From contig BLSF01000016.1 of NCBI GenBank assembly GCA_012862575.1, positions 248,001 through 312,000 of the forward strand: DNA of 64,000 nucleotides. The letters are read 5' to 3'. Below, piece by piece: positions 6,504 through 57,990 of the stretch. Below the pieces are notes generated by a model, which saw only the letters and a list, made by a program, of their open reading frames with translations, was not told where the DNA came from and ran no database searches. Position numbers and translations under genes: made by a program. The DNA comes from Parietichytrium sp. I65-24A (Eukaryota > Sar > Bigyra > Thraustochytrida > Thraustochytriidae). Every line of letters begins with the position of its first letter. Position 1 is the stretch's first letter.

Positions 6504-6555
6504 TAAGTGAAGCCACGAAGTGCAGCGTAAACAAACCCTATCGGAAGGTGGGGTG
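6504..6555 (-). mobile_element. Micro-element copy A (52 bp), near the cotransporter start
   Basis: One of five related 42-53 bp copies. Strand is given relative to the end reading CACCCCACC. This copy carries the shared core GCGTAAACAAACCCTATCGG and ends in GGTGGGGTG. The flanks GGCTAGAAT (6495-6503) and GGCTTGAAC (6556-6564) match at 7 of 9 positions, as an ageing 9-bp target duplication would. It lies 94 bases upstream of the cotransporter ATG, so it is probably in the promoter or 5' leader. Confidence 0.75.
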
Positions 6556-6648
6556 GGCTTGAACAAAGACATCGTCGCGGGCTCGCTGGTGGAGCGCCAG
6601 CAGGATTGGCGCGGTTTGGGGTAAGCAACGTGGGTGATAGTGGCGACC

Positions 6649-9600
6649 ATGGACGGCGCTGGCAGCTTTAGGCTGGAAGGGTCGCGGCCCACGGACAGAA
6701 TTGAGGACTATGGAGAAGGCGTGTCTGCCGGTAAGGCAATGTCGCGCCTGCGACGAGGGATTCGAGGAGTTGGAAGACGGCCGCAGACAGCCGGCGTGGA
6801 CAACGACAGTAGCGGGAAATTAGGGACCATTGATGGGGTGTACTTTCGCGTGTTGACAAATCTGTTCGGCGTGATTATGTTCCTGCGGCTGGGCTGGATG
6901 GTCGGGTATGCTGGCATTGTGGTTTCCATAATGATTATCTGCCTTTGCTCCTCTCTGACGTTCATCACGGCCTTGTCGCTGTCCGCGATTTGCACCAACG
7001 GCAAAGTGGCTGCCGGTGGGGCGTACTATTTAATCAGTAGAGCCCTTGGCCCCGAGTTTGGTGCAAGTATCGGCATTCTATTTTACATCGCAACCACAGT
7101 GAGCGTCTCGCTGTACTTGCTTGGGTTTGCGGAAACTGTTGTAAACATCATTGACGGCCCCGTTTTTAGCAGTACCTGGGACATGCCACTTATTGCCATC
7201 TTTGGACTAATATTCTGCCAGATGGTATGTCTGATCGGGGTGAAATGGGTTGTTAAAATCGAAAAGGTGATGCTTCTTGTGTTAATAGTCACCATCGCAT
7301 TCTTTGCCATCGGCGTCCTCATGGGGCCCAAGTCTTCGGACCCTTGGTTCGGCGAAGTCAATGTCCAGAGCGGAATGAACGTATGGCCTGACTTTTCAGC
7401 TCGGGCGGAGCCTGAGTTTCCGAGCAGCGATGCTGCCTCGTTCATGTACGAGCGAGGGATCGTGTCCGACCCTGGCTTTACTAGCGCATCGCAGTGTAAG
7501 TCGTCCTCGCGCCAGGTCCTCGAGAACGAATACTTTCAGGTCAATATTGGCATTACCCTTGCAGTGTTCTTTCCTGCGGTCACAGGCATTTTGGCCGGGG
7601 CGAACATTAGCGGGGACTTGAAAGATCCCAGCTCATCGATCCCCGTCGGCACGCTCTTCGCGATCGTTACCGGGGCGGCAACTTACTCGTTTCTAGCCAT
7701 CCTCTTCGGAACTGGCTTTTACAGGTCGACAATTGTGAGTGCAACCTTTGCCTCCAACCAAACAGATGCCCTCCCGCTGTTCGACTGCACGTACGGTGGT
7801 TTGTTCCATGATTCCGCACTAGTGGCTAAATCGGCACTGAATGCCCCCTTCGTATATTTTGGCATCTATGCTGCATCTATTTCGTCCGGCTTGGCTGGTC
7901 TGTTGGGCGCTCCGCGAGTTCTACAGGCCTTGGCACGCGATCGGCTTTTTACAATTTTGGACCCTCTCGCTGCTGGCTATGGCTCTAGCGATGAGCCGCT
8001 GCCAGCTTATGCGGTGACCTTTTTCCTTTCGGCTCTTTTCATTCTGGCTGGAGACATCAATACCATCGCACCTTTGATCACCACGTTCTTTTTGTCCTCG
8101 TACGCCATGGTAAATTACGCTTGTTTCTCTGCAGAGGAGTCAAAGAGCCCTGGTTGGAGGCCGACTTTTCGGTATTTTAGCAAGTGGCTGGCCTTCCTCG
8201 GCGCCATGGGTTGCGTGTCTGTAATGCTTTTCCTGTCAGCAATCTTTGGGTTCATCACATTTACCATTGGCCTCGCCCTCTACAAGTATGTTGAAGTGTA
8301 TACAAGGGAGGGCGGCTATGTAAGTAACTGGGGGCCTCACAAGGAGGCCTCGCAATATTATACTGCACTGAGCGCAGCCCTGCTCCTAGAGGAGCAGGCG
8401 ACACCTGTTGCGCGGCCGCATCGTGCGAGTAGCGCAGAGCGGGTGCATAATACGGCAACGAGGGCCCCCGTGCGATCGCAAAGTGTCGAGTCCGACCATC
8501 CCAACGGCGCCGCGGCAACGCACGTGGAGATTGAGCTGTCAGAAACGAGCGGAACTCACCGAGTTGCGCCCGGACAAATGCATGACGAAGAAGACATGGA
8601 CTATGATGCCGAGAACAGCAATGTTTTTGACCGCGAGCAATTTTCTGGGCACGAGCCTCTCTTTGACACCACCCATGTCAAGAACTATCGCCCACAGTGT
8701 TTGGTTCTATCTGGCCCCCCTCGGCGGCGCCCTGCTCTCGCCTTGCTCGTGGCTGGCTTGAGAAAGGGCAGGGGTGTAACAGTGTTTGGCGACGTTCTGG
8801 TAGGTGAACTGTCCGACCCGGACCTGCTGCGAACCAGGAACGTGCGAGCCTCCGTGTCGTACGTCGCAAAGTACGGAATCAAAGCGTTCAGTGACGTGGT
8901 CATCGCGCCTTCTTTCCGTACTGGGTGCAGATCGTTAATGCAGCTCTGCGGGCTCGGGCGTAAGATGCGGGTCAACACTGTTGTGCTCGGGTTTCTAGAC
9001 GACTGGCAGGTACCCATGAGTCAGCGCATCAATCGAGACGCTCTGCACGTGGATCCGTCCACAGTGGACCAGGATGCAGCTCGAGGCGACGATTATTTCT
9101 CTCCCCCGCCTGGTGTTGCAGACTACGTGGGTGTTATTGGGGACGCCTTTGATCTGGGCCTCGGAGTTGTCATTCTGAGAGGGGAGCTAGACCTCTTGCG
9201 TAGTGAATACCTGACGCAGACGATCCAAACCGAAATGGAGAGAGTATTGAACCTCGGTTTGGCAAGAAAGCGAAGACCAGGCAACGAGCAGAACGGCGTC
9301 TACCGAAATCCAAATGAGATGTCTGATGAGTTTAGCCCTCGCCGAATCCATACGATCACCACCCACGAGTCAGCAGAGTTTGACAATGCCCCGCCAAGCA
9401 CAGCCCCGGCACAGACAAGCCTCGACCGCGAGGAGGATGCTTCAGATCGCAAAAGCGAAAAGAGAATCGACGTGTGGTGGCTCGTCGATGACGGCGGCTT
9501 AACGATTATGATTCCGCACATTTTGCGACAGGCCAAGTCTCCTCCATGGATTGGATGTAGTTTGCGTGTGATGGCGATCGGCGCAACGACGGAGGAGGCG

Positions 9601-10089: not shown

Positions 10090-10101
10090 TTAAATTAATT
10101 A

Positions 10102-10537
10102 TTCAAGGCCGTTTCCGACTTTCAAGAATACTGTTTCCATTATTTCTCACATTTCTCAAAGTCAATTCGCTGGCAAGAAGAAGATGAAGATGAAGGTGGT
10201 GATGAAAATGTTGAAGAGAAACAACAAAAACAAAATGACGAGGATGATGAAGATGGAGACAAACTTAATGCTGAAGAAGAAGAAGAACACCCCACCTTCC
10301 GATAGAGTTTGTTTACGCTGCACTTCGTGGCTTCACTTGGAAGAAGAAGAAGGAGCGGTATGCCGAGAACCCTTCGAAGAGCTGAAGACCCCAACTCGCT
10401 CGGCTAATTTCTCATGTCACCCTACCTCTTGGAAGCTTCATTCTCAGCTTCGCGAACAATTTAGGCCTACAGCCACGTGCCATTCTTCAAATCGAGCACT
10501 TGAACACCGGCGCAATTCCATCTTTCGTCGTGTATAA
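10102..10537 (+). pseudogene. Acidic reading frame interrupted by micro-element copy B
   Basis: From about 10102 one frame reads as a Glu/Asp-rich protein segment (for example QEEDEDEGGDENVEEK) up to a Glu run at 10287. There copy B of the micro-element begins, and the frame meets a stop at 10303 inside it. Beyond the element, from 10340, a second frame resumes with another Glu run and stays open to a stop at 10535-10537. Element plus 9-bp duplication is 61 bp, which gives precisely the one-base frame change seen. No ATG is present in the left part, so this may be a 3' exon or a gene remnant, and the acidic run could also be chance low complexity. Function unknown. Confidence 0.4.
10288..10339 (+). 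mobile_element. Micro-element copy B (52 bp) inside an acidic frame
   Basis: It begins CACCCCACC, ends TTCACTTG, and differs from copy A at only a few positions over 52 bases. It is flanked by GAAGAAGAA on both sides (10279-10287 and 10340-10348). That fits a 9-bp target duplication, although the flank is itself a GAA repeat, so the exact junction is ambiguous. Confidence 0.8.
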
Positions 10538-15051: not shown

Positions 15052-15054
15052 CTT

Positions 15055-15157: not shown

Positions 15158-16543
15158 GTTTCGAGTCTGTGCAAATCCATAGATTCCATCCATACATCCA
15201 CTCCTCCACTCTTACTCACGGGGCTACCGCTGCAGCTACTCGATAGGTTAATGTCGTGGTAGGGATGGGCGTAGCCAGCCGGGGGCTACCGCGGGAGGTA
15301 GGGGGGCTAGACGGGCTGTCGGGAGGAGGGCTAGGCGGGGGAGTAGGTGCGCGGTAAGCGGTAAGGCGCGAGTGTGTCTGTCTTTGGTGATTGGCATTTT
15401 GTTTTGTAATTTGGAGTGAGGTGCTTTCTGCTTTAGCTTTTGTGTTATGAAAGTGTGGAGGGGAATGAGCAAGAGAAGTAGAGCTTAGAAGGTTTTTGTA
15501 GAGAAGGCTGAAGGCATCTGCGATGAAATGAATGAGTGAAATTGCTTCTGTCCTCTAAGAGTCTCACGCCACCTGCGCGAGTGCTACTCGGACACTGCGC
15601 TGCTTGGTAGCACGCAGAGTGGTGCAATTGATATGCGCATCTATGGGGTCGATAAGAACTCTGGTAGATGGAGATAGATGGAGTGAGTGAGTCGGTAGCC
15701 TTGGACAGCTGCTAGTGGTAGTGGTTGTGGTTGTGAGGAGGATACCAGGTTTCAGTGTGAAGTGAGTGAAGTAGTTGAGGCCACTGTGGCGCGACATGAA
15801 TGCGAGACAAACGACGCTGACTACAGATTTTTCTGACTAGTCGTACCACCTCCTTCTTTCTTCCTCCTCTTTCTTGGAACTAGAGAGGAGACTAGAAGAG
15901 GGAGATTTCTGTCAGTTGACGCTCCCTTTCTAGAGCTAGTCTTACTCAGAACTTGCATGAAAGGCGTTGCGCTTTCGTACTGCCAGTGCGTGTACTCAGT
16001 ACAGACGCGGAGGCCTATGAGATGTGATAGAGAGTCTTAGTGCGCTTGAGCTTCTTTTAACTTGAGAATTACTGAAAATGCTAACATGAAGTGAGGCAAG
16101 AGTGCAGTCCGCTTAAAGCTTCTCTATTACTGCATGCTATGCTTTAAGTTAGATGGCGAATAGGAGCCGGCGTTCCGGAATAATTCCCTGGTGTTCCCCG
16201 CGTCATCATACGTCATTCACACTTAAAGTTTGATCTATGTGTTATTAGGCATTCTACACAAATCTCCGACAGTATTGTTCCGTTAGTCCCTTGGAGTTGG
16301 GGGGTTCTTAGCTTCGCCTAAGTGATGCAATACATTGCAGTTGCGGAACGCAATTCATTGTCGCGCCTGCAGAACGTAATTGCGGAACGCATCGGTGATC
16401 ATGCGAAGAGATAGAACTGAGATGAACTGAGATGAAATCTGAGGAAAGAAAAAAAAGAAAGGAAAGATTTTGAGAAATAGCGTGCAAGCAAAAGTACACA
16501 AACGCACATGCGAGTGAGAAAAGTGAGCATAGAAATGCAGAAT
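15158..16543. other. Intergenic region upstream of cytochrome c
   Basis: About 1.4 kb with no convincing gene. It includes G-rich (15260-15350) and TC/AG-rich patches. It separates the cytochrome c promoter side from the 3' end of the Rab escort protein gene. Confidence 0.5.
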
Positions 16544-18442: not shown

Positions 18443-19864
18443 CGCAGTCGTCGCCTTTTGGTCCCTGGGAGACACTGACTATCCTCAAGAAAACCCGGTG
18501 TCCTCAACTATATTTCGCCCCCTGCGCCTCGGCCTTCGTCAATGCGCGGACCTTAGAAACTCACACAGACAGTCGGAGCACTGCGTACACTATCGCAGCG
18601 CTCTGCACCGATATCGTACTCGAGTACCCTTGCAATTACAAGCAACACAGCTCTATAAGTAGCTCTAGCTACGAGAGTGTTACACACTCGGAGCACGTTC
18701 CGAGTTCCAAGTGTTTGGTCCGAGCCTTCGAGGACATAGCCTTAGATGTGCCCGTCTCTCGGGGACCCCAAACTGTTTCGTCATTTCTGCCCATGTCAAT
18801 CGCAAAAGGAAGGCTTGTAGGAACGACGTGCACGGGCAAATTGTTTTTGTGAATAAATACTACGTAAAATGCCCGGCGCTTTTCTTATTTCTTTTGTCTG
18901 AGTTGTGGCCGTTGTCGCAGAGGATTTCTGATGCCAGCCACAAAGCCGTATGGAGCACTCTCTCTGAGCATTTATTTGCTTGTGCAGCAGAAATATGAAA
19001 GTTATTGAGGCAATTGCTTGTAGCTATACGTGCAAAACCGAGACTTGAACATGAGGAACGTCGCGTGAGCGCTTTGCGCATGCTGGACCGAAAGCGGCAG
19101 CCGCATGGAATACATCGGGAAACAATTACGTCAGTTTTCGAAGTGCTACACCAGCTGTGCTCCTCCGAGAGCCATGCAGGGTCGATGATGACCTTGCTGC
19201 TGCCAGCCTTGAGCTTGTCGCGCTTGTGCCTGGCTCTGGGGGAGACCACATATAATTTGATAAAAACCTCCCCACCGTGCGAGCAGCGGCGCGTCTTATA
19301 GACCTCTGTTCCACGACATCCTGAGGCAACCATTTGGCGAGATCCAGCCGTTTCTCAGGATGGAGCTTTGTAAATGTCACTTTCAAATGGGTGCCACTTG
19401 CGAATTCCATTCGCAAACACGGCCCATAGCACGCTTCGCACATATAAAGCGACCTCCAAGTCCATCGAAGGGTGCGCTTCGAGCACGCTTGCTGCAGCCC
19501 TCTCGAGCAAACGCTTGCTCAAGAGGCAGAACGGTTACACTACACCCGGCGCCAACTCCACGCGGATCAACGTCTTGGCAACAATCTTTACTGGCTCTTC
19601 TTCTTGCACAAATACTCTCTCTGCCCTCTCGCGGATCAACCTTTCTTTCTTTTCCGTTTCCTATCTTTTTGCGGTTTTTGCAATCTAGCTACCAGCACTT
19701 CGACCCGCGCATGAGAAACTGGACCTTGGGATCCTTGGAAGCCAGCCAGCTTGGTCACTCAATATAAAAATTTGTAGACACACAATCAGCATTCAGTCCG
19801 AACCGACCAGATACACCTCAGCGACATGCAGTTCGGGCTAGGCAGATTTGGAAGTCAAGGCGTC
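18443..19864. other. Intergenic region upstream of the Rab escort gene
   Basis: About 1.4 kb without a convincing gene. One copy of the 12-bp palindrome GTACTCGAGTAC lies at 18616-18627, in the likely promoter of the Rab escort gene. Confidence 0.5.
18616..18627. repeat. 12-bp palindrome GTACTCGAGTAC, copy 1
   Basis: Perfect self-complementary 12-mer, about 175 bases upstream of the Rab escort ATG. Three further exact copies occur in the window (49350, 58041 and 63305). Confidence 0.9.
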
Positions 19865-20728: not shown

Positions 20729-21619
20729 TTAAAACCGCATCGACAGAAAGAGAGCGAAAAGCGATGCCAGTGGAGCAATCGCTCGGTTGGCAGGGCTCAA
20801 TGTGGGGGGGTTGGAAGGGCTCGATGTGGTGGGGGCGTAGGAAGGTCTCGATGTGACGGCGGGCATGGAATCAAGCTCTTCCCACGAGTAAACTGTATCC
20901 ATGACGAATGGATGTTTTGACTGTGAATCAGGGCCACTCATTCGAATCGTGCATTTGCTTGGACCGAGGAACGGTTGTCCTTCTTCGCACTGGGTCAAGT
21001 TGTCAAAATGAACTACGGTCCCATTCCCGTACTTTGTGGTGGTGCCGTTGTCTCGAACAAGACATTTTCCCACCTCCTCAAGTGTAAACACGCGGTTGCG
21101 GATTTGCTCGTAAATTACCTCAGATGGCTCCACGAATATAGCTTCAATTGGAGGTTCAGTTGAATATGCACAAGAAGCTGGCAGTGGCAATGTTATATCC
21201 TCTGCATATGTCTCAGTCCACACAGCTGACACTCGCGCAACCATGATAGCATTCTCAGAATCCATCGTGCTTACAGAGGTCTTTACACATCCAGAGCTTG
21301 TCGATCGAATAATATTGACCGTCCTCGTCCAAGGCATAAAATTTTCAAAGAAATCATTGTCTTTGCAATCTCCCCCATTGTAGAACCCAAGCTTTATTTC
21401 AATCTCTACTTCACTCATTCTCAAAACTTCGTATTTCACAAAAGCCTTCGCCCCCGGTTCGTAAATGCACTTCAACGGAAAGGACTTGAATTCTTCAGGA
21501 TTTCCAGAGCAATCTGACGAAATGAAAGTTTCCAGTCTAAGCACTTGAATGGGCTCTCCGTCTGTCAAGGTGGCAGAGAGAAGGCTCGCCAAAGCGAGTG
21601 GGGCGAACGCTGCTCTCAT
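20729..21619 (-). CDS. Secreted, probably GPI-anchored surface protein, member 1
   Basis: 296 residues with an N-terminal signal peptide (MRAAFAPLALASLLSATLT). A Cys-rich ectodomain spans about residues 22-245. A Ser/Thr/Pro stalk (about 250-280, SRPSYAPTTSSPSNPPT) is followed by a hydrophobic C-terminus (APLASLFALFLSMRF) with no cytoplasmic tail, as in GPI-anchor signals. Ectodomain landmarks shared with member 2 are SSDCSG, LGFYNGGDCKDNDFFE, VSTMDSEN, EEVGKCL and FLGPSKCT. Several N-X-T/S sites are present. The ATG is fixed by the exact match to the start of member 2. The family was not recognised. It is inverted relative to the homologue at 23127-24005. Confidence 0.82.
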   Translation of the reverse strand: MRAAFAPLALASLLSATLTDGEPIQVLRLETFISSDCSGNPEEFKSFPLKCIYEPGAKAFVKYEVLRMSEVEIEIKLGFYNGGDCKDNDFFENFMPWTRTVNIIRSTSSGCVKTSVSTMDSENAIMVARVSAVWTETYAEDITLPLPASCAYSTEPPIEAIFVEPSEVIYEQIRNRVFTLEEVGKCLVRDNGTTTKYGNGTVVHFDNLTQCEEGQPFLGPSKCTIRMSGPDSQSKHPFVMDTVYSWEELDSMPAVTSRPSYAPTTSSPSNPPTLSPANRAIAPLASLFALFLSMRF

Positions 21620-21731: not shown

Positions 21732-21784
21732 CAACCCCACCCTCCGATAGGGTTTGTTTACGCTGCACTTCGTGGCTACACTTA
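21732..21784 (+). mobile_element. Micro-element copy C (about 53 bp)
   Basis: It shares the core and both ends with copies A and B, with CAACCCCACCC at its start and CTACACTTA at its end. No direct repeat is found at the flanks, so this copy may be older or its flanks rearranged. It lies about 115 bases upstream of the start of surface protein 1. The equivalent upstream region of member 2 holds copy D, farther out and with its own target duplication. Confidence 0.7.
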
Positions 21785-22576: not shown

Positions 22577-22816
22577 AATACCTCATCTTGAAAAAACAAA
22601 TCAAGGAAAATAGATTCTGAGGTTTTGGAGGTAAGCTTACCGGTAAGATGTGCACCTGAAAGGAAAGATAGTTCTGAATAATTTATCGAAGTCGAGTACG
22701 TGTGTTCACAGTTAATTAGACCAAGAGCTATGCGTGTTGGTAGTAGGCACTGGTCTTTGAATTATGATTCTGCATACGTCTGTAGCGTTCTCGGCCAGCA
22801 ACCCAGCGAACTGGAC

Positions 22817-22858
22817 CAAGTAGTGGAGCGTAAACAAACCCTATTGGAAGGTGGGGTG
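22817..22858 (-). mobile_element. Micro-element copy D (42 bp, internally shortened)
   Basis: It keeps CAAGT at one end and GGTGGGGTG at the other but lacks about ten bases around the CCACGAAGTG part. It is flanked by perfect 9-bp direct repeats, GAACTGGAC, at 22808-22816 and 22859-22867. This is one of the two clearest target duplications in the family because the flank is not low complexity. Confidence 0.85.
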
Positions 22859-23126
22859 GAACTGGACGGAACTGGATGTGAACGGAGAGAAGAGAGAGAG
22901 AGTGAGAGTGAAGACAAGGCTTTGACGGCTAGGAAACCAGCAGGGTACAGTTTGGAATGAAGGATTCATGAATTGTCTTGTTTGTGGGAATCGATCTAAT
23001 CTTTTGTGAGTGAATGAATGAAGCCTTTGTTTGAGTGGTTTTGAAACCGCTTGCAAAACCCGGGAAGGAAAAAGACTGCGAGAGCAGACCCCGAACACAG
23101 GAAACGAGAAACAAGCAAGCAAGAAA

Positions 23127-24005
23127 ATGAGAGCAGCGTTCGCCCCACTCGCCTTGGCGAGCCTTCTCTCTGCCACCTTGACAGATGGAAAAACCCTTCA
23201 AGTGTTCAAGACGGAAATGTTCGAATCGTCAGATTGCTCTGGAACTCCTCGCGCAACAAACTCCTTTCCTTTGTTCTGCGTTCGCAATCCATTTTATGAC
23301 GTTTTCATGAAAATGGAAGCTTCGGAAAGAGAAGGAGAAATTGATCTCATGTTGGGGTTCTACAATGGGGCAGATTGCAAAGACAATGACTTTTTTGAAC
23401 AAATGGAGCCTCAGGCGTGGGGGACGTTCAAGCCTATTGATTCGACAAGCTCTTCCTGCACAAAGAATGCTGTGAGCACGTTGGATTCTGAGAATGTTGT
23501 CATGGTTGCTCAAGTGTCACATGTGTGGATTGAAGATTATGCGGGAGCACTCCCACTGCCACTGCAAACTTCTTGCGCGTATGCAACTGAACCTCCAAGT
23601 GAGGCTACATTCGTGGAGCTATCTGAGTGGCTCGAAAAATATCGCACAAACGCTGTCCTTACAGTTGAGGAGGTGGGAAAATGTCTCCATAGAGATTTAT
23701 CTGAATTTAGCTGGTATCGCGGTTTGGAGGCGACAAAGTACGAGCAAACGGGGATAGTTCATTTTGATAACTTGGCCGAGTGCGAAAAAGGACAGTCATT
23801 CCTCGGTCCAAGCAAGTGCACGTTTCGAATCGGTGAATTATTTGGACCTGGTAAACAATATCCCTTCGCCATGCAAACTGTTCACTCATTGGAAGAGCTC
23901 GGTGTATCGACCGCCGATGCATCGAGCCCTGCGAACCGAGCTATTGCTCCACTGGCATCTTATGTTGCACCGCTTCTCGCTCTCTTTCTGTCGATGTGGT
24001 TTTAA
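23127..24005 (+). CDS. Secreted, probably GPI-anchored surface protein, member 2
   Basis: 292 residues from the ATG at 23127; the frame is open upstream without a better start, and the signal peptide begins exactly here. It is the homologue of 20729-21619, in the opposite orientation. Over the first 63 bases of coding DNA the two differ at only a handful of positions. The C-terminus (SPANRAIAPLAS and a hydrophobic end) is likewise nearly the same. The ectodomain between them is much more diverged and has indels, while Cys positions and motifs such as DCKDNDFFE and FLGPSKCT are kept. The Ser/Thr/Pro stalk of member 1 is almost absent here. Likely a cell-surface protein of unknown role. Confidence 0.82.
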   Translation: MRAAFAPLALASLLSATLTDGKTLQVFKTEMFESSDCSGTPRATNSFPLFCVRNPFYDVFMKMEASEREGEIDLMLGFYNGADCKDNDFFEQMEPQAWGTFKPIDSTSSSCTKNAVSTLDSENVVMVAQVSHVWIEDYAGALPLPLQTSCAYATEPPSEATFVELSEWLEKYRTNAVLTVEEVGKCLHRDLSEFSWYRGLEATKYEQTGIVHFDNLAECEKGQSFLGPSKCTFRIGELFGPGKQYPFAMQTVHSLEELGVSTADASSPANRAIAPLASYVAPLLALFLSMWF

Positions 24006-25524: not shown

Positions 25525-25559
25525 AGGTGCGCGGAGAGGGAAGATTTGCTCGCACTTAC

Positions 25560-26285: not shown

Positions 26286-27031
26286 TTCCGCACCGTTTCT
26301 TTCCGACTCGTCCCTTTCTCACCTCAACTAGCAAATAGGAGAAGCGAGTCTGCAGAGAGGGTGGGATTCCCCCGGCGTCTGCCTCCCTGCGCCTAGACAG
26401 TAGTGCTCTTGCACGCAACTGCTCCTCGCCCGACGCCGCAGCTGCAGAGTGTCAATCCTCGCCACGTTATTTCCACTGCTCGTGCCCTCACTGCATTCCG
26501 CTTGGCGCCTATGTTTCATTCATCCTGTCATGCCGTGCCCTCAGAGGCTCAGCCTTACCCTGCCCGATAGTACCGGTAACGGTCAAGCGAACTTCCAAGT
26601 TGAACTTGCTTGCAAAACAATGTTCTGAATTCTGAAGGAGGTAGTAGTAGGTAAAAAGGGTTGCGGAGTGATTAGCTGTGGAAGTGAGTGAGTGAGTGAG
26701 TGAGTGAATGGACTGCCATTGCGCTCTTGTATCGTGAATGTGGCGGGAGATTGTGAGGGCTTCTTCTCGCTTTGCTGTTTGGCAGAGATGGGAAACGTGT
26801 TGTTCACATCATTCACAGTTCAATGTTGAATGTTCATAGATTGAAAAAGTTGGAATGAGAGAAATCTGCATTGCAGGGTTCACAGGCAGGTGATAAAGTT
26901 GCGCCCGGTGTTTGTGTGGGAGCCAGGAGTCGAGAAAACCACTGCGCCCACGGCCCATACCAGCGGCCATCGCAAGAACAGCTGCGGACGTGGATGGGTC
27001 GCGGCTCCGATTGTGCGTCGGAAGAAACGTC
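26286..27031. promoter_or_regulatory. Divergent spacer between acidic protein and EF-hand genes
   Basis: About 750 bases between two head-to-head starts. It contains a TACCGGTA palindrome (26571-26578) and a (GAGT)n run near 26685-26706. No gene is seen. Confidence 0.5.
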
Positions 27032-29326: not shown

Positions 29327-31279
29327 ATGGCCACTTGAGGAGAATTTCATTGACACCGGTTCACCTTGGTTTGCGCTTTGTCTTCATGGTCAGTGTATCC
29401 GCTCCCACACGAGACTCGAAATTCGCCAGGGAGAGCGGATATTTCTGACAAAGTCGACTCCACTTACGATTCCTTGACCACAGCCAGCATATTCCCCACA
29501 ATGCGATGCGTTTGTCAACCAAGACTTTCGAGCCAAGCTCCAGAGCGTTTCCAAGTGTAGTAGCATTCAAATCTTCAAGATTTCACCCGTGCAAAGTTGC
29601 TCAGGGTCGAATGCATCGCCGAGTACTTTCGGCTCAACTGTTCACTGATCATCAATTGGTATACGTACTGTACACGTGTACGGTACACTACACGTACACA
29701 CTATCACTGCTACTACAGGGGCGTAGAGAATATGCTGGTTGTTAGCTATCTGGTATCCATCTGACTATCATTATGGGGTAAACAAGATCTAGGCATAGTA
29801 GTACCTTATAGTAACGGTCCTACGTAATTTGTGGGGACGGATAGAAAGCGGTAGAAAGCTTCACGTTCAGTTCAGAACTGTACCATTCTTGCTACTCGCG
29901 GAAGTAGAATGCGAAATCAGTAGTAACCCAAAGCGAGCCAAATCACCACAAATATTACCGAATGCGCTAACTAGCATGGACTTATTATCCGATACATGAG
30001 GCGATAAGAGTACTTACTATAACACTGCTACGGTCGGTATATCACGGCATAACTGGCGAGCAGCTCCCTCGCCGAGGGAGGGACGTCGATAGACTCTCCT
30101 ACCCAGTACTGGTAGAACACCAATCGTGGACTTTCTGGAACCATTCTGAACATTATGATTTTATGTTTGGGATGTTTTTTTGAGGATCTTGGTCCTAACG
30201 AACACTTACTGCGACCGGTAAGTAATTAGCGAGTCTGGTAGATGATGGTTAGGACAAAAGTGGTTCAGTTCTTGGGAGCAATGGCTGCTCTCCCTCTCAT
30301 GGCACGGCCTCTCACAACAGCTCTTTGCTTATGATCTGTACTCTCGATTCCTATATAAATAACAGCCATCTACCATCCATTTTACAATTACAGGTAATGG
30401 ACCTTAAGGAGTCCATTATTCCTCTCATGCTCTCTAGGCTTTCTTTCCCTCGCCCACACTTTCCACTTGTTCCCTCTCTCATTGCCTTCCTTTTTTCCTT
30501 CCTTTCTTTCCTCTTTCGTCTCTCTCTCTTTCTTTCTCTCTCTCTCTCTGTCTCTCTCTCTCTCTACTCTACTCACTCATTCACTCGCTCTCTCACCACC
30601 GCCCTCCTAGCACCATCCTATGCGTGGACTACCGTGACCCACACCCGACGCTTACTTCTTCTCCCACCACTTCCTTTTCCCGGCGTCCCCACAGGTACCA
30701 CGTGCGCGCACGTCTCGCCGGTCCTCTCTGTCCGTGCGCGGCCCTAGCATTCTGCTGGCGCCCTCCTACAGTTTTGCCTGGCCCAGTGGGGCAGCTGCAG
30801 GAGGGACGGACGGGTGGGTGGGTCCAGGTGCGGGGTGTCCTCGTCGTAGGTGCGGGGAGGAGCAGCCAGTGGGTGCGCGGCTTCTAGGTGTCCTCGTTGG
30901 TGGGATCTTGCCGCGTGGGGCGGAGCGAAGTGGGCGAGCGGCCAGTTTTCGCTGTCAGCATTAGCAGCCGGGTTGGTTTTGTTTCCCCCCAAAGTTGTCG
31001 TGGCAACCGCCAAAGCGATTGTAAAGGACGTAGAACACTCCGGCCGGTGTACACTTGCGGGGACGTGTACGTTTTCACCCGTTGGCGGGGTCGGGCGTGC
31101 ATGGATCATACGTAAAACCCTCTCATTATCATCATCATCATCATCATCGAGCACGGCTCAATCAAGTAGACGAATATATTCAGACGATCAGACAGACAGA
31201 TAGACAGACATATACACAGGCGAACGTTTGTCCGGGCGCAAAAGTTGAATCAGACGTGCTAGTTCGCAGTATATCGAAG
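29327..31279. other. Intergenic region, microsatellites and a GTAC palindrome
   Basis: Nearly 2 kb with no convincing gene. It holds a GTAC-rich palindrome (29665-29686), a short GC hairpin near 30066, a long CT/TTTC tract (30480-30575), and (ATC)n with GACA repeats at 31124-31210 that probably lie in the next gene's 5' leader. Confidence 0.5.
29665..29686. repeat. 22-bp near-perfect palindrome rich in GTAC
   Basis: GTACTGTACACGTGTACGGTAC is self-complementary apart from one mismatched pair and is centred on ACACGTGT. It resembles the GTAC cluster at 6347-6372. Confidence 0.8.
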
Positions 31280-40000: not shown

Positions 40001-43000
40001 AGAAGTGCATATGGTTCTGAGAGAACTTCAGCAGAAAGCAACGCGATTGGATAATAGTTGCTTAGTAGCATAAACAATAGGAGATGAGTGCGTTTTGTGG
40101 ACTTGCTGTTTCCCAAAACGTCTTCTGCAGATCTTGTTCCTATTTACCGGATGACTACATTAAACTGTGAGGTGTCAGCTTGGCTTCACGTGACTCCATT
40201 CTGAGAGAGTCAGTGTAATCAAGCCCTCATCCCAGCCGGTAGTACTCGGTAACACCGGTTCCATACATCTTGCTGTAAGGCCAGTATAGTGTATCTACTA
40301 GCGTGCAAGAGAGGTGAGCTCCACACACGAAGTATATGGTGAAGATTAGCAGACACAGTTGCATAGGACGATTTAATGATTTGGTTAGGTTAAATGATCT
40401 TCCGGTTGGAGTTGACCTGAGAGGAACGAGGAAAGGGTAGGGTAACACATTAACGGTAGGTGTCGACTAGTACCACGGGATGCTTGATGCTTCCTGCAAA
40501 TCAAGTTTTTCTTTCTTTCCTTCTTCTTCATTTCCGTAAAAACAGTTTTATTCGTTTGCTGTTTTTTGTTGGACGTTACTTCAATTCGTGTTGTCAAGTT
40601 AATTCCATCATGCCTTCAAGTTAATTCCATCATGCCTGACAGTCAGAGCGAGCTTTTGACCAGTGCATTCTCGTCCGAGACGCACGCCGGGGGTTGATAC
40701 TGAGTACTGATCAGAACTCTCTTTTTCTTCTATTTTCCCTTTTTTATTGAGGCAGCTCACAGACCAAGCAAGCTATACTCCCATCCCCTTTAACGAGATT
40801 GCTAGCGCTGGTACCTCCAGTGTCCGTATCCGTGTAAGAAACTAAACTGTTTCAGTACTATCTATCAGTAGGTAGTCTCAGAGCAATGACCAGAGCGATC
40901 TGCCCTGCGCAATATTAGTAGTAGGCCATCGAAAAGTGCTAGGACTGCCTACGCAAATGGAGAAGGACTAGCTCTAACACAGAATACAAGTACATAATAG
41001 TATAAAAATGGGAACAAGGCGAGAGCAAAAACTTCATCAACAACAATCTCTTTCGAAGAAGCAGAACGTAAAACCGTGCTCTCGATTCTTGGAAATCCAA
41101 AAAGCAGAAACAATCGCGATTTCCTTCTTCGTCCTTTTTCCAGTTTTGTTATAGTCATGCAAGAATTTCTGAAATTTGAATCTTGCTTGTGCAAATAGAT
41201 GCCTCCTCACAACAGGTAGTTAGGCCTCCCTGTTGATGTCGAATTTGATTTCAAAATTCAAAAAAGTGGATTTGAAAACACGCTTGATTGAGGAGGAGCG
41301 GAGAGTGTCAATTTGAAGAATGCTTATGCGGCATTCTATACAATCCTACTACAAAAGCAATAAACCCCGCCGACTTTCTACGCACTCTCCCTCACAACAG
41401 GTTGGGCTCCTTACTTTGTCCCGCACCTGGACTGAACTTGCTGAAAAAAGTGCTATCGAGAAAGATACCGCTTCTCACAGCAGGTTGAATAATTTAAAAC
41501 TTCTAGTAAAGTCCGTCGCAGTCAAGACTGCAGCTTTGTGAGGCAAGAATTCTGAGACTGGACAAGGTGTCGTCTGTCTGTCGAGATATGAGGCAAGAAG
41601 GATGAATGCGAGCACCATCACTACCATCACACGTATACAGTCAGAATTTAGAGTCTATGAACAGCAATCGATTTCTTTTGCACACTGGAAAGAATTGCTT
41701 CGCGTGTACTGACACTGAGTACCCAATTATGTTGGTGTGGAGTTCAAATTTCTATTCTAAATCCTACTTACAAAATTTGAACCTTTAATCTGATTCTGTT
41801 TCCGTCTTTTTGCCTGCTCGCGAGCTACTAGAGTTTTTGGACGTTCTAACTAGTGCTGCAAAAACCGAGTTTTGACTGCATTCTATTCTTTGCTGTTTAC
41901 GTTGTGTTCTCTCTCCTTCTCACCCTCCCTCTCCCTGTTGTTCGAACTCGAGTAGGATTTAAAAAAATGAAGAAAGAAGAAATAGAGAAAGAAAAAAGAA
42001 AAAAGAAAGGTAGCCAGTCGAATTCACAAATGCAGCAAAGTTGGCCCGTTAGCGCCATGGCTAGGTCTGCCCATGCTTGCCACTATAGGTTTTTTACTGA
42101 AAACCGCCTGTCAAGCCGCGCGTTTCCGTCGCGAACTCCACTGCTCTCAGATTATGCGAAAAAAAGTGGGAACAACTCGCGGTAGACGGTCTTCACAACC
42201 GCCTCAAAGGCGTCAACGCTCCCTCACAAAGAAATTAGAGCTCCAACATCTCGTTTCGGCGCTCTGCACTCTGCACTCGGGAGCTTCAACGCTTATCATA
42301 TCAGCGCCTACCGCTGCTCCCCCCACATCGATTTCCGCCCCCTCTCCTTGGCGGTTTCTAACTCTGCGCCTAGCTTGCCGGATACGGGCTGTTGGTAACG
42401 CTGAAGCACTGTGTAAACCTTGAGGAAAGGAATGGATGGAGGGAAGAAACAAAAGGCCACCGCGTTGGAAGGGCGCTCCTTTGGAATTTTGTGAATTCTT
42501 CTCGGGTGTGAGGACAAGAAGTTTCGGAAACCGAAGTACCCTCCTAGCCCCGTTCTGCAAGTAAATGGACTTATAAACAGTTATTTCAAAACTTACAGTC
42601 TACTTAGTACCTCAGAGACATAGTAACTGCTGATTCGACAGCCTCTTCATGTAGTTCGGCGGGGAAAGGAAGGGGACTGAAGGGAGGGAGCTTCAGCGTT
42701 CTGAACAAGACTTCAACGAAGCCGGGAAGGGGAAGGAGGAGGGAGTTGTGCGATGGTGTGTGTCTTTCCAGCATATCATTGCGCGTAACAAAATAGGTAA
42801 GGGGGGTCGCTCCACAGGAATTTGGTGAGGAAGGCAGCCTCACCGACGCGCAAGCGCATGTTTTTTGACACACGCTCACCAACATCTGCTGAGGGGCTTG
42901 ACATTGATATCCTTTTCTTGCGTCGTTTTTAACAATCAACCACACTCAGAATTTGATTCCCAACTCCTCACATGTCAAGCATGTCAATGCGAAAGGGTCC

Positions 43001-47105: not shown

Positions 47106-48125
47106 ATGATGCGGCGACGCGGGGACGTCGAGGCGGGCGGGGACAAAGGAGAGCTGGAAGGTCTGTTCGCGCAAGGGCAGACGGGAACGCAGGGCAAAGG
47201 AGTGCTGCTCCGTGCGCGTAGGCTGTTTCGAAGGTACGGAGCTCGCGTGGTATGTGTGATTTTGCTGTTACTGCTGGGTTATGTTCTTGCGCATGTGGTG
47301 CGCCATATGAGTAGAGTACTGATGGCTGAAGATCCGTGCAAGATTGCAGCGAAATCGGAAGCCTTGAAGTTCGAGCGGCGGCAAAGGTTTGCCACAACTG
47401 CGAAGGGTGAGCTGCCAAAGATTATCCACCAGCAATGGAAAACTGACACTTTGCCCGAAGGAGATTTCCAGGCGTATCGCGCTCTGTGGAAGAAGCTCTA
47501 CCCGGAGCCCGAGTATAAGCACGTTTTGTGGACCGACGAGTCCGCAAGAGAGCTCATTCGCAAGGACTTTCCATGGTTCTTGGCAACCTATGATGGGTAC
47601 ACGATGAACATTCAACGAGCGGATTCTTCGCGGTACTTCATTTTGTACAGATACGGTGGTGTGTACGCCGATCTGGATTACGAACCTCTTGTAAACTTTT
47701 GGAAGTATCTGCCGAGCGATCGTGTTGCCGTTATTGAGAGCCCGTACAAGTCGAATGAGATGGTGCAGAACAGCCTCATGTCCAGCCCGAAGAATGACCC
47801 TTTCTGGAACCTCACCTTTTCGGTCATGTTGGAGCGCCATAGCAGCTTAAATATTCTCGGTAGCGCTGGCCCTGCAATGCTGGACGAGGCCCTCAGACGG
47901 GCCCCGCACCACACTTGGTACCACATACTGCCTTGCGAGAACTTCCAGCGTATTCCCGTCGGGAATGCCGGGAAGAATTCTCACTTCCACAGTCGACTTG
48001 CTCGGAATATATTGTATTACTCGCCTAGCTCAAAGTACTGCGGGAATGTTGACAAACTTGACGACTGCCAGTTCGGCATTCATCACAACTCAGTGTCGTA
48101 CCTCAACGGCGGAGAAAAAGGTTAA
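47106..48125 (+). CDS. Type II membrane glycosyltransferase, GT32/OCH1-like, member A
   Basis: 339 residues. The start MMRRRGDVEAG aligns with MIRRRGDVEAG of member B, which fixes the ATG at 47106. A short cytoplasmic basic part is followed by a signal anchor (about 38-60, VVCVILLLLLGYVLAHVV). The catalytic region holds IIHQQWKT, LWTDESARELI, MNIQRADSSRYFILYRYGG and the DXD motif in YADLDYEPL (about residue 188). The domain is the glycosyltransferase sugar-binding DXD type seen in OCH1 mannosyltransferase and mannosyl-phosphorylinositol ceramide synthases. It should transfer a sugar from a nucleotide donor in the Golgi lumen. Donor and acceptor are not known. Confidence 0.85.
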   Translation: MMRRRGDVEAGGDKGELEGLFAQGQTGTQGKGVLLRARRLFRRYGARVVCVILLLLLGYVLAHVVRHMSRVLMAEDPCKIAAKSEALKFERRQRFATTAKGELPKIIHQQWKTDTLPEGDFQAYRALWKKLYPEPEYKHVLWTDESARELIRKDFPWFLATYDGYTMNIQRADSSRYFILYRYGGVYADLDYEPLVNFWKYLPSDRVAVIESPYKSNEMVQNSLMSSPKNDPFWNLTFSVMLERHSSLNILGSAGPAMLDEALRRAPHHTWYHILPCENFQRIPVGNAGKNSHFHSRLARNILYYSPSSKYCGNVDKLDDCQFGIHHNSVSYLNGGEKG

Positions 48126-49485: not shown

Positions 49486-50556
49486 ATGATTCGACGACGC
49501 GGCGATGTGGAGGCGGGTTTGGAGAGACCCGCAGCGGAGAGCCATTTGGGTCAAGTGTCCTCGGGGAGTCCACTGGCCCAAGCAGGTAAGGGGCCGATGG
49601 GCCAGCAGCGCTTATTGCTGCGGAGGTGGTGCGGTGTGCGCGTGGCGTGGGTGATAGAGAGGGTATTGCTCGCTGCGCTGGTATTGCTGGTAGCAAACGC
49701 GGTGCACCACATGGGAAGAACCTTTTCGGCAGAGAATCCGTGCAAAGTGGCGCAGAGGACGGCTTCTTTGATGGAGAGCGAGCCGCGACAAAGGTGGTTC
49801 TCGGGCTCGAGGAGCGGGATTCCGAAGATTATTCACCAGCAGTGGAAAACTGAAAATGTGCCTGAAGGAGATTTCCAGGCGTATCGCGCTCTGTGGAAGA
49901 AGCTCTACCCAGAGCCCGAGTATGAGCACATTTTGTGGACCGACGAGTCCGCAAGAGAGCTCATTCGCGAGGACTTTCCATGGTTCTTGGCAACCTATGA
50001 CGGATTCTCGATGAACATCCAGCGTGCGGATGCCTCGCGGTACTTCATTTTGTACAGATACGGTGGTGTGTACGCTGATTTGGATTACGAACCATTTGTG
50101 AATTTTTGGGAGTATCTGCCGAGCGATCGTGTTGCCGTTATTGAGAGCCCGTACAAGTCGAATGAGATGGTGCAAAACAGCCTCATGTCCAGCCCAAAGA
50201 ATGACCCGTTCTGGAACCTAACATTTTCTATCATGATGGAGCGCCATTCGAGCCGAAAGATTCTCAGCAGTACTGGCCCGGCAATGTTGGACGAGGCTCT
50301 CAGACGGGCCCCGCATCAAACCTGGTTCCACGTGCTGCCTTGCGAGAACTTCCAGCGCATTCCCATCGGTAGTGCTGGACTGAACTCTCCTTATGTGAGC
50401 CAAATTGTCCGGACCTTTTTCTACTTTACGCCGTTCTCGAAATACTGCGGTGATGTCCGAAACCGCCACGATTGCCAGTTTGGCATTCATCACAACACAG
50501 TAACGTATCTCAACGTTGGGAAGGCTGGACTCATGGACATTGTTAATAATTTTTGA
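49486..50556 (+). CDS. Type II membrane glycosyltransferase, GT32/OCH1-like, member B
   Basis: 356 residues, same architecture as member A: a basic N-terminus, a signal anchor at about 55-78 (VLLAALVLLVANAVHHM) and a catalytic domain with the DXD motif in YADLDYEPF near residue 198. Much of the catalytic region is nearly identical to member A even at silent sites, for instance around GDFQAYRALWKKLYPEPEYE, while the N-terminal stem differs. That pattern suggests recent duplication or gene conversion. The C-terminus HHNTVTYLNVGKAGLMDIV is the family ending and served as a guide for the spliced end of member C. The leader is GA-rich, as for member C. Confidence 0.87.
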   Translation: MIRRRGDVEAGLERPAAESHLGQVSSGSPLAQAGKGPMGQQRLLLRRWCGVRVAWVIERVLLAALVLLVANAVHHMGRTFSAENPCKVAQRTASLMESEPRQRWFSGSRSGIPKIIHQQWKTENVPEGDFQAYRALWKKLYPEPEYEHILWTDESARELIREDFPWFLATYDGFSMNIQRADASRYFILYRYGGVYADLDYEPFVNFWEYLPSDRVAVIESPYKSNEMVQNSLMSSPKNDPFWNLTFSIMMERHSSRKILSSTGPAMLDEALRRAPHQTWFHVLPCENFQRIPIGSAGLNSPYVSQIVRTFFYFTPFSKYCGDVRNRHDCQFGIHHNTVTYLNVGKAGLMDIVNNF

Positions 50557-50860: not shown

Positions 50861-52235
50861 CTAAAAGATGAGTTTCAAAATCCCAGTGTCACTGAGGTAC
50901 CCAGCAGTGTTGTCTACAAAAGCGAAAAACACATAACGGTTAGAAACAACGGTCCGAACGGTCCACTTACCAAGTCAATTCTGTACGCTCAAACTTACGG
51001 TGCTTGCCATATTGGCACTGGAGATTGTTGTAATCGCCACACTTTTTCATTGGATAAAAGCGGCCCAGAATTTCGCGGTGCAACAGAGTTGCGTAGGGGC
51101 TCTTATCCGTCTCGCCAAGAGGGATGCGGTGGAACAACTCGCAAGGAAGATAGTCCCACTTTTCATGAGTCTCAGCCATTGCGCTGTCCAGCAAGACTGG
51201 GCCAGTCGACTTGAGCACGCCAGCAGAAGACTTTTTGCGCAAGACGCGGAACACGTCAAACCAGAATGGAGCGCCGATAGGCGATGACATGAGCGAATTC
51301 TGCACGTATTCATTGTACTGGTAAGGGCTCTGAATGATGCCCACACGATCTTTCGGAATCAAATGCCAAAAGTTGCGAAGCGGCTCATAATCCAAATCCG
51401 CGTAGACGCCTCCGAAACGATGAAGGATAAAGTATCTGGCTGCGTCCGCGCGTTGAATGTTGAACTCATAGCCGTCGTACACATCCAAGAACCACGGGTA
51501 GTGCTCCTCAATAAGCTCGCGTGCAGTTTCGTCCGACCAAAGGATGTGCGTGTACTCCGGTTCCGGGAAGAGCTCCTTCCATTTCGCGTGCCACAGGGCA
51601 TACTTTTCAGGGACTGGACCGAGGATCTTCCACTGTTGATGAATGATCTTCGGAACCCTAGGAGACAAGGTATTATTATCACTCGTGTCCACCTCGCCCT
51701 CGTCCAAGTCGACCGGAACTTGAAGGGCTTCGGCCAGCATGTTTTTCGCGCTAATCTCTTCAGCGACTTGGCAGGCATTGCGGGGTTGCAAAAACACCAT
51801 CGAGTAACCGGTGAGCAACACAAGAAGCGACGCCGCTCCACACAGAGCGACAAGAATAAGCTTGCAGCACCCCGCGCGGCTGAATCTGCACCGCCCGGAG
51901 CTCGTCGCCGACGACGACGCTGGTTTCCTCACATTCGAAAGCCCGAACTGCGGCTGATTTTCTTGGCAAGACGCCTTGCGCAAGCATTGCATCGAGCACA
52001 CATTGAACGAGCAGCAGAACGTCAACAGTCCCATCACCAGCCTGAAGCTCGCCGTGCACCTATGCATCATCCCCAATACAATCCTCCCCACTCGTGACCT
52101 CCTCGACGCTCCGCTGGGCGAGCTGCCGGACCCTTTCTCCACGTCCACTAAATTCGAACCGAGACATTCCCCGTGGTCCGCAACGAAACCGACAGAGTCC
52201 TCCGCCGACTTGCCGCCCTTGCTCCTGTAAATCAT
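50861..52235 (-). CDS. Type II membrane glycosyltransferase, GT32/OCH1-like, member C, with a C-terminal intron
   Basis: Exon 1 is 52235-50999 and exon 2 is 50913-50861, with an 85-bp intron having a GTAAGT donor and a TTTTGTAG acceptor. Splicing gives 429 residues ending HHNTAGYLSDTGILKLIF, which aligns with the ends of members A and B. Without splicing the frame would end in an unrelated tail (RKFERTELTW). Two hydrophobic segments lie at the N-terminus (about 63-82 and 123-150), so the stem is longer than in A and B. The DXD motif in YADLDYEPL is near residue 278. This member is more diverged than A and B are from each other. It lies convergent to them. Confidence 0.85.
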
Positions 52236-53985
52236 CTCTCTCTCTCTCTCTCTTTCTCTCTCCTTCCTGACTTCCTGACTTCCTCCTCTTCTAGCCGAGC
52301 ACGCTAACTAACTCCAGCGCGGCGGGGACACTCGCGCCTCTTGCTTCTTCCCGGCTCTCCTCTCTCTATTTTGGCGCGGACTCCCACAGGTTCTCTCTCT
52401 CTCACTCACTCACATCAGTTTCGGATCTGTCTTCTTTCTTTCTTTCTTTTTCTGTTTCAAGTTTTCGTTCTGTCTCTTTCCGCCTTCTTCTTTCCTTGTC
52501 TACGCCTCCTCTATCTTCTCTCAGCCATTATGCAAAGTGCTAGACGAAGCAGTAGCATCGAGCTTCGTCGATCACAAGTAACTGCTCAGTAGGCAGGTTA
52601 CTGTGGGTTCTCGCGGCTCTGAATCCGACTAGGACGTGGTTAGATGATGGCCTATGCTCTTGAGTGGTTCTTCGCGGCTCGCTAGGGTCGCGGAATTAGC
52701 TGAATTGGGTGCCCACTCTTATGGAGAGTCATTATGGGAGCGCACTATGGGACGCTATGGCAAGACGTTGGTGAGGTTTTAAAGGGGTTGTAAGGAGTTG
52801 TGGGAGAGGACGGAGTCCTGTTATATTTAGTTATCTGTCTTGATTGTGCTTCTGTTAGGTTGGCTCGCACTGGAGGGACAGCATTCGTTACGGGACACGG
52901 TAGAGGTGCTGAAGAACAGCCAGTGAAAATGGGCTTCGGCAATAAACCTTGAAGAAATGTCTCAGTACGCATATCCTCATGCCGTTTCAGAACTCTTTTA
53001 TGTCTAGCAGATTATTTCACCATTCTCTTCCAGGTCCTCACACAATACCATGCACGAGACGTCGCTGCGCGGGTCCTGAATCTTCCTTTCTCCCAACCTC
53101 GACAACATGCGTGGCAAACAAGCCGCATAGGACCCATCTACTCCTATCCCTAGCAAACTCTCGCCAGCCCTCCAGGCGAGTAACCACTTCATTCCAACCT
53201 CAGGTGAACGACCTATCCTACCTGGTGACCCTATCCATATATATCCATATCCCTGATTCTCATCCCAGTCGAGGAGCCTTCGTGTCACTCGGGGGCCCCT
53301 GTTACGAGGGTTTTGGAAGCATTAGACCGATGATTTCGTTTATTTCGTTACAGAACTTGGGAGGAAGACGCACCATAATTCGCTTAAGAGCCGACAGTTC
53401 ACGTGCGCACTGGCCCGTGTGACAGTGAACACATAGATTAGAGAGCTTCAGTCAACAATCAAAATTTGAGAAAATCGTTCATTCATTCATTCATTCATGC
53501 ATTCTTGTTCTTGAAATCACTTCATCGATGCGTAGCGTGGTATGCGTGGATGCTTTCCGCGAACAAAGTACTTGCACGAAGTTAGTTGGAGCTGCCAGGA
53601 CTGTGAGGCGCACGAAGGTGGGTAAGTGAGTAATCTTGCGTCGTGGATTGATTGTGTCAATCTATTTGTGGCGATTGGAGATGTGTGATTGTGGCGACGA
53701 CAAGTGTGTGAGGCGACGGGGGCCAAGGTGCGGGGATGCAAAATTTCCAACTAGGCTGTGGACCTACGCCGATCGGGAGCAGTCATGATGTGACCAGAAC
53801 ATCTCCAAACCCTGGCATGGCGAAGAAGAGCGTCCTACCGCGCCTCTTACATCTCTTACCGCTGGCTGGTGATTGCACTGCAACTTGAACTTGACCGCGA
53901 GCGCGAGCCTGTGACTGGTACTGTACTGTATACTCACTGTCAGTACCAACTGAGACTTTCCGGACTTTCCGGCAGGAGAACATCC
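52236..53985. other. Intergenic region upstream of glycosyltransferase C
   Basis: About 1.75 kb without a recognised gene. (CT)n directly precedes the member C start on the plus strand, reading (GA)n in its leader. Further TTTC and CATT runs occur near 52435 and 53480. Confidence 0.5.
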
Positions 53986-54186
53986 AGCCAGCTTAGCCAG
54001 CTGGCCACTTTTCACGCTTCACATTTGTGTTTCGCGCAAACTGGCCGCGCTGGTCGCGAACAATGTTCACAAGGATAACAACGCCAATGATGACGAACTC
54101 TTGCTTCCTTGATTGGTCGTGGTGACCAGCGCCGCCAGTTCGCGCGAAACACAAATGTGAAAAGTGACCGGCTGGCTAAGCTGGCT
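53986..54186. repeat. Long inverted repeat (about 63-70 bp arms, 68-bp spacer)
   Basis: The arms are 53986-54055 and 54124-54186, read in opposite directions. They match with few substitutions, apart from a 7-base extra piece in the left arm. Landmarks are AGCCAGCTTAGCCAG at the outer ends and CACATTTGTGTTTCGCGC inside. A transcript could fold into a long stem. The structure also resembles a MITE with long terminal repeats, but I see no clear flanking duplication. Confidence 0.85.
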
Positions 54187-54974
54187 GTTTCACAAGCACG
54201 GACATTCTAGACCATGGAAGCGGCTGCAGGTTGCTCGGTAAGCCCGCAAGGTAGCACAAAGGGAGAGCCCCGAGGAAAAGGTCGTGTAGAGCACCACCGC
54301 GCGTGGTGATACTGAGATCCAGAAGGCTTGCGTTGTACAACATTGCACTGAGATATCAGTCCAACATTCCTACAATCTCCCACGTCTGCCTGACACTGAC
54401 AGACTGAGTCGACATTTGCCAACGGATCGAACTGATCGAACCCAAGAAGTGGGTTGGAAGATCGAGACGGATCCAAAGCATTTTGTATTCCTCGTATGCG
54501 TACTGGTATATTTGTGTTTGTTTAGGTTAGGTGACACAACACTCGCTATTCTAAAAGTTCCCGTTGTTCGACTCACATGTATTCTTGCTTCCAAGCAGAA
54601 AGAATTTATTTAACCCTGTTCAATTCAAGATAATTAAAAAAAAATAAAAAAAGCAAAACCAAGAACGAAGAGTGAGCGAAGAAAAAAAGTTGCAATTTTT
54701 GTCTCAAAAGAAAAGGTAGCAAAGTGGGTGAGTTGACTCGCACGCGACTCCGTTCTTTTTGCGCATCAGAGGAAACTCGGAATGCTTCAAAGAACTTGAA
54801 ATGTTTGCAAAAGCGAGCACGAGCGCAAGAGCACCCAGGAAGAATAGCATGTCAGGAACCGGCAACGGCATTAGGAGGAGGAGATAGCTCTGTCAGCGAA
54901 GCGCGCGGAAAACGTTCCGTTCTCCAACGAAGGGAACGATTTTTGCTGGCTTCAGAAGTGAATGCGGAGACTTA
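54187..54974. other. Spacer downstream of the HSF gene
   Basis: About 790 bases. A-rich near 54630-54720. No recognised gene. Confidence 0.5.
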
Positions 54975-56180: not shown

Positions 56181-57944
56181 TCTCTTGGCCCTCTTCTTCT
56201 TCTTCTTCTTCTCACAATCCCTGTCTCAAGTTTTTCCTCTCGGCCACAACAGCTAGCTTTTCTCCAAAGCTAGCCACGCACCTGCCAAACACAGTCAACA
56301 GAGTGCGCGCTCTCCTAGCGGCTTGCGAGGACACTCGCTCTCCGACTGTCCCAGCTGTCCCAAACAACAACCCACGTCGTTACGTCGTTACGTCGTTGGC
56401 CGGTCCTCCGAGTATCCTCTGCCCCCAGGTAACCGTCTAGCGCTTGCTAGCGATCACACTCTCACTGTCCCCGTGGGCACTCGCTCGAATGAGCAAATTA
56501 CTCTCTCTCTCTCCCTCTCTCTCTCTCTCTGACGGGTGTACGCGCGTACCCTTTTTATCGTGTCCCTTACCGCTCTCTCTCTCTCTCTCTCTCTGTGTTT
56601 CTTCTCGCAATTATGGTTTCTATCTCCGCGGATTGTCTCTCGTTCTGACGTTGCTCTACTGCTACCGTTCTGACTATTCGTGCAGTACTGTGCTCCTCAG
56701 GTAAGGATACTCCTGTGCCGCCACTAGGGACGAAGCAACCTGCTGATCGTAGCGCTTCGGTAGAGTATTCCATAGATGGGAGATATGGGTAGGAGCCGTA
56801 GAATGCGGTATGCTGGAATATGTGAGGGCTAAGATCGGCATAGCTGCCCAGCTGCAAACCGCTCAACCGAGGGCTAGAGGTTTGGACTATATGGGCGTAG
56901 AGGGAGAAGGTAGGTGCAGCGCTATGAGTGATGTTCTGGATCCTTCGAATAGGAGTTCCTACACTCCCGAGTGGTCCTTAGTAGTCATTATGAACCGTTA
57001 TAGAAGTGTGGGCCAGGCTGGACAACAGGCAGTTAGAAGAGGTAATAAGCTCCTCTTAAGAGAGGAGGGTGGAGAGTGGGCAGGTAGAGTAAACTGGCTA
57101 GCGTATGGTGTAGCTGCGGTGTAGCGGGTGGGAGGATTGTTTGGGTGCTATTGGGTAGGTAAGAATGCTGGGAAAATATCTTTTTGATGACTTTGTGTTA
57201 CCATGGCTACCAGAGAGTGCACAGCTTCGAACTTTTCTTTATTTTTCTTATGAAATCAAACAAAATGTCTATCTTTTCTCCTGCCCTTTTCTTTTTCTTC
57301 CTTTTTGGTTTCTGCAATTTGATGTGATAACACTTTTCCTTTTTTAACACGCTAGCTAGCTGGATCGAGTGATCTGATCTCTCTCCCACACTGTCAAATC
57401 AATCAGTCAGTCACTCATTCAAAAGGAGCGTTCAGTTGACAGTGAACAATGAACAGTACTTAGCAGTCTCGTATCCATACCGGTACCGTGCCGTAGTACG
57501 GGCAGTACGGGCATTCATCCGTTTGGTGGCGATGATCGCGATGATCCGAGTTATCATGATCATGATGATGGATAAAATAGATCATCTTGATTCTGTCGTT
57601 ATCATGATGCATGAAACACTGACACTGACTTGTATTTAGCAGTCTATCAGTTCCCCGTCCTTGCAAACCTTTGTGACAGCTTTGTTCAATGAAATAAAAC
57701 AAAGAGCGGTCAGAAAGTCATACCTCCTCTACCTACTCCCACCTGGGGAGTGCGGACGGGGAGTGTTGGCACAGTGCGCCGAGAGACTGGTTTACCTACT
57801 TTTAGTGCTAGAAACGGAGTAAGAGCTGGCATTGGTGGGGCACTCGAGTGGGAGTTTTAGGCAAGTATTGACACTCTGAAATCCAGGTCTTGTGTGAATC
57901 TCGAGATGAATTGCGTTCCGCATCAGCCGTTCCGAAAGTTGTCA
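56181..57944. other. Intergenic region upstream of HSF
   Basis: About 1.76 kb. (CT)n runs at 56502-56531 and 56574-56594 would lie as (GA)n in an HSF leader. A TACCGGTA palindrome lies at 57478. Open frames of about 100 codons are present, without domains. Confidence 0.5.
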
Positions 57945-57990
57945 CACCCCACCTTCCGAAGGGTTTGTTTACGCTCTCACTTCGTGACTG
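57945..57990 (+). mobile_element. Micro-element copy E (46 bp)
   Basis: It begins CACCCCACCTTCCG and ends GTGACTG, sharing the GGGTTTGTTTACGC core with the others. It is flanked by perfect 9-bp direct repeats AAGTTGTCA at 57936-57944 and 57991-57999; the match runs one base further. The flank is not low complexity, so this is strong evidence of insertion. Confidence 0.85.

Follow-up and report, generated by a model that had tools for sequence, protein, structure and literature searches.

We identified five copies of a very short dispersed repeat (42-53 bp) within a 64-kb stretch of Parietichytrium sp. I65-24A DNA (the window), which is the only sequence of this organism analysed. The five copies are real and occur beyond chance expectation, and the element is very probably mobile. 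The initial annotation had read the copies as a footprint of transposition. Mobility is indeed well supported, both by the perfect direct repeats that enclose two copies and by the non-homologous positions of two copies in paralogous promoters; the interpretation as a whole is supported in part. We lean towards a very short, non-autonomous mobile family that lacks terminal inverted repeats (TIRs) and is probably moved in trans.

Three of the copies are long. Copy A (6504-6555, 52 bp) has its core on the forward strand, and B (10288-10339, 52 bp, within a TTC/GAA microsatellite) and C (21732-21784, 53 bp) have it on the reverse strand. Copies D (22817-22858, 42 bp, forward strand) and E (57945-57990, 46 bp, core on the reverse strand) are shorter. 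Five copies at these coordinates had been reported in the initial annotation, and a core search, a blastn self-comparison of the window (which connects all five) and a profile search bear this out. Allowing up to three mismatches, the 20-bp core has four matches (A, B, C and D; E is missed), where shuffles give an expectation of 0.00. The profile recovers all five copies at E-values of at most 2.8e-14, a recovery that is not independent because these five copies also served to build the profile. The next profile match (28253-28275, E-value 0.026) is weak and lies inside an ORF, and we thus take the family in the window to consist of five copies. The earlier figure of thousands of copies in the genome is an extrapolation from this density. 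The earlier observation is confirmed in part. The common core it described is homologous in all five copies but is exact over 20 bp only in A and C; a single mismatch occurs in each of B and D, and E has one base missing. Exact or degenerate patterns of the core had no matches in viral, bacterial and archaeal contig collections, which says little about a eukaryote. Protein searches of the viral collection likewise yielded no related contigs. A repeat resembling this one was not found among the literature matches listed, many of them off-topic, and we do not claim its absence from print.

The 3' end, read in the sense of the core, is GGTGGGGTG exactly in four copies, and C carries GGTGGGGTTG. 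Of the ends previously described as common, CACCCCACC stands exactly at the end of these four copies, but C has CAACCCCACC. The odd end of C (GGGGTTG), judged by eye, could stem from a small deletion across the right junction. The other end had been given as CACTTG in most copies, which proved incorrect: only B has this hexamer, and the same position holds CACTTA in A and C, TACTTG in D and TGACTG in E. Copies B, D and E begin with a C, copies A and C with a T, and the family has a defined 5' end of the form (C/T)A(A/G). The 3'-end word, with two mismatches, is found at the five copies and at two further places in the window (1.26 expected by chance); the 5'-end word is found only in A, B and C. 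The near-absence of terminal inverted repeats was correctly noted before. The 5' 22 bp and the reverse-complemented 3' 22 bp show no more similarity than random 22-mers do (P 0.77 for A-D, 0.37 for E), and CA...TG, found in B, D and E, is the only shared terminal pairing.

The alignment suggests two subfamilies, a long one of 52-53 bp and a shorter one, as the base directly before AGCGTAAAC is G in D and E but C in the other three copies. Among A, B and C, only a few of the 52 positions vary. The 5' part of D is that of B minus 10 internal bases and with one substitution, and reading it as a 5' truncation needs three substitutions. E can similarly be read as lacking six internal bases, with small further changes. 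By parsimony over these two copies, D and E appear best read as internal deletions that keep the CA start and the GGTGGGGTG end, and the short forms thus appear to retain both termini.

Clear target-site duplications are present at two of the five copies. Copy D is flanked by GAACTGGAC, identical on both sides over 9 bp (forward-strand positions 22808-22816 and 22859-22867). Copy E is flanked by AAGTTGTCA (57936-57944 and 57991-57999, forward strand), and these 9 bp can be extended to the 10 bp of AAGTTGTCAC by counting the next C. The duplication length in the window is therefore 9 bp at D and 9-10 bp at E. Both repeats are perfect, as had been claimed, but not both are unique: AAGTTGTCA recurs at 20997. 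The 10-bp form AAGTTGTCAC is confined within the window to the two flanks of E. A further GGAACTGGA adjoins D.

Among 400,000 random intervals of matching lengths, exact 9-mer pairs occur at a rate of 8.75e-5 and pairs with at least 7 of 9 matching positions at 0.00276. A scan blind to the core (9-bp repeats around CA...TG at 36-70 bp) returned only D and E, and had no matches in eight first-order Markov simulations; these copies also supplied its CA...TG rule, so the scan is not fully independent. The repeats of D and E look less striking once boundaries are placed freely. For 20,000 random 20-bp cores, a non-simple word common to both sides within 40 bp reached at least 9 bp at a frequency of 0.019 and at least 10 bp at 0.012. 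Short-spaced direct repeats are also in excess across the window (52 rows, compared with 11, 17, 13, 17, 19 and 7 in six third-order Markov simulations); 19 of the 52 rows represent two tandem arrays and two represent D and E.

The flanks of the long copies are less informative. A repeat said to bound B does exist, but it sits in the TTC microsatellite and says little. The flanks of A (GGCTAGAAT and GGCTTGAAC) match at 7 of 9 positions, as previously reported, and a comparison of the 9-mer flanks of C revealed no recognisable duplication. Genome-wide copies without flank duplications had been named beforehand as evidence against transposition, and the window contains such copies in part (none at C, 7 of 9 at A). 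Simple decay seems to fit the missing duplications of A and C poorly, because the elements of A, B and C themselves differ at few positions.

Copies C and D are located near ORFs 20729-21619(-) and 23031-24005(+), which encode similar proteins with an identical start. The upstream regions of both ORFs have two blocks in common (21875-21940/22885-22949 and 21561-21712/23053-23185). C is between the two blocks, and the corresponding interval beside D lacks it; D itself is located upstream of its own block. Given these non-homologous positions, it is unlikely that C and D represent a single inherited promoter element. When C is excised, the alignment score goes up from 163.5 to 172.0, but 34 of the 221 positions tested outrank the true one, and the case for an exact empty site at C is thus not decisive. 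Excision of both C and D raises the score only from 165.0 to 166.0.

The element is too short to encode an enzyme. A mechanism based on a DNA transposase is, in our judgement, somewhat probable. A transposase encoded elsewhere would move the 42-53 bp elements in trans, and would make a staggered cut that leaves a 9-bp target duplication. Cut-and-paste of the DDE type, the enzyme acting in trans and its superfamily are parts of this proposal that we infer.

The family resembles MITEs in being short, non-coding and dispersed, with target duplications at some copies, but differs from them in having no inverted terminal repeats. At 42-53 bp, the element is no longer than the shortest usual MITEs. 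MULEs are described as having target duplications of 8-11 bp and in some cases no TIRs, and they are known in stramenopiles (PMC6446971). The duplications of 9-10 bp at D and E fall within this range, with B uninformative, 7 of 9 positions at A and no duplication at C, and the absence of TIRs is tolerated on the same account. Unlike MULEs, the element combines a lack of TIRs with a length of only 42-53 bp, and no related transposase and no autonomous or longer relative was seen in the 64-kb window. Assignment to Mutator specifically is compatible with the 9-bp duplication, which is the one feature that links the two, and we regard it as doubtful.

Tentatively, we suggest that the two different ends may form a minimal asymmetric substrate, either for a transposase that makes a 9-bp stagger or for an RNA-copying enzyme that uses a 3' hairpin, and that this TIR-less family, present at high density, may be among the smallest mobile units of eukaryotic nuclear genomes. 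If the element is as frequent elsewhere, it would represent a natural experiment on the minimal end DNA needed by a mobilising enzyme, and a scattered source of short insertions by promoters. Programs that require inverted repeats or longer units would probably miss such a family.

Copying via RNA is the main rival to the transposase mechanism, although we consider it unlikely. On this view, a LINE-type enzyme would reverse-transcribe a short RNA that ends in a 3' hairpin, and the element would be a tiny retroposon whose copies share their 3' end, vary at the 5' end and carry a short target duplication. The 3' end is indeed the same in four of the five copies and the 5' parts vary by subfamily, as in SINE-like retroposons. 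A hairpin (stem ACCCUAUC/GGUGGGGU, loop GGAA) is present in the predicted RNA folds of B and D, whose C-to-T changes retain G-U pairs, and a MAFFT alignment shows D and E as 5'-shortened. However, D needs fewer changes as an internal deletion, and E is predicted to take a different fold from B and D. The duplications are 9 bp at D and 9-10 bp at E, and, in contrast to SINE-like retroposons, the element has no tail or tRNA relic: an A-tail or 3' simple repeat is absent at A, C, D and E, and B lies in its microsatellite.

Folding covered copies B, D and E. The core-sense RNA folds are no better than those of shuffles (z -0.83 for B, -1.38 for D and -0.19 for E), which counts against the retroposon. 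A reading as a structured RNA was rejected on these values and on those of the opposite strand (z 0.50 for B, 0.28 for E). The DNA folds of the three copies are also no better than shuffles. No Rfam match at or above the gathering score was identified in the window. The regions of A and E were also searched at a lax threshold, with no match for E and a single match for A (8.8 bits, compared with a gathering score of 70). ARAGORN, run with the bacterial code, identified no tRNA genes in the window.

A conserved regulatory or RNA motif that is positioned by genes and does not move is improbable. Copies A, C and D each lie upstream of a long ORF in sense orientation, at about 93, 112 and 268 bp from its first ATG (for C, ORF 20729-21619(-)), as would be expected of such a motif, and in A and C the element is better preserved than the flank repeats. 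B and E are not positioned in this way. Such a motif would leave the perfect duplications that flank D and E unexplained, and C and D occupy non-homologous sites in paralogous promoters. Pfam names eight of the ten proteins searched from the window, including members of the SLC12, class-3 GPCR, EMP70, HSF and tetraspanin families. These families indicate a eukaryote, and the gene style and PT repeat would fit a stramenopile such as a thraustochytrid.

It is very improbable that the element is an Introner, a mobile element spliced as an intron after landing in genes. Introners are likewise short and non-autonomous, and overlap with the element in size and duplication length (family medians of 30-654 nt, with duplications of 3-9 bp in some previously characterised families; PMC9860276). 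In the core sense, GT occurs within the first 10 bases of all five copies and AG within the last 10 of four. In the opposite sense, the signals would be borrowed from the flanks: four copies have GT within the 9 bp to the left, and four have AG within the 9 bp to the right. However, chance alone often yields bare GT and AG, and core-sense splicing at AG would leave the last 8 bases of the element in the exon. Opposite-sense introns would fall outside the transcripts beside A, C and D, since these copies are core-sense. Unlike Introners, none of the five copies interrupts an ORF of at least 250 aa in the window, which is weakly informative because long ORFs make up only about 43% of it (42.6% for a hand-picked list of 16 ORFs). 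Stop-to-stop frames of at least 60 codons span all five copies, the longest (147 codons) at B.

Filler DNA from the repair of double-strand breaks, or insertion between short repeats that were already present, would be in keeping with the excess of short-spaced direct repeats and with the lack of a duplication at C, but is the least probable explanation, as the occurrence of one sequence at five sites with near-identical ends calls for a recurrent template and a definition of the ends.

We identified several other repeats in the window. A 17-bp inverted match, ATGAATTGCGTTCCGCA, is present at 16342-16358 and 57906-57922; the second site adjoins copy E, and the first is surrounded by more GCGTTCCGCA-like words. 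Stretches of 39-58 bp between exact, non-tandem direct repeats of 10-11 bp were found at 15220-15292, 19561-19640, 26481-26543, 30834-30897 and 41539-41599, and these could be other small insertions. A 203-bp inverted repeat (53985-54187) is MITE-like in appearance, with long arms of 31 nt (94% complementarity) and 44 nt (91%) and with CAGCC...GGCTG ends; no 9-bp flank duplication was apparent by eye. A link between this repeat and the short element was rejected, as it resembles B, E and D no more closely than it does random stretches (P 0.27, 0.27 and 0.39, respectively).

A 120-bp direct repeat (1-120 and 1919-2038, 98% identical) apparently covers the end of an open frame, and is perhaps a partial gene duplication. 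Self-comparison also revealed three related ORFs in a row (47106-48125, 49486-50556 and 50967-52235). The second, which is the one of the three that was searched, matches the Pfam family Gly_transf_sug.
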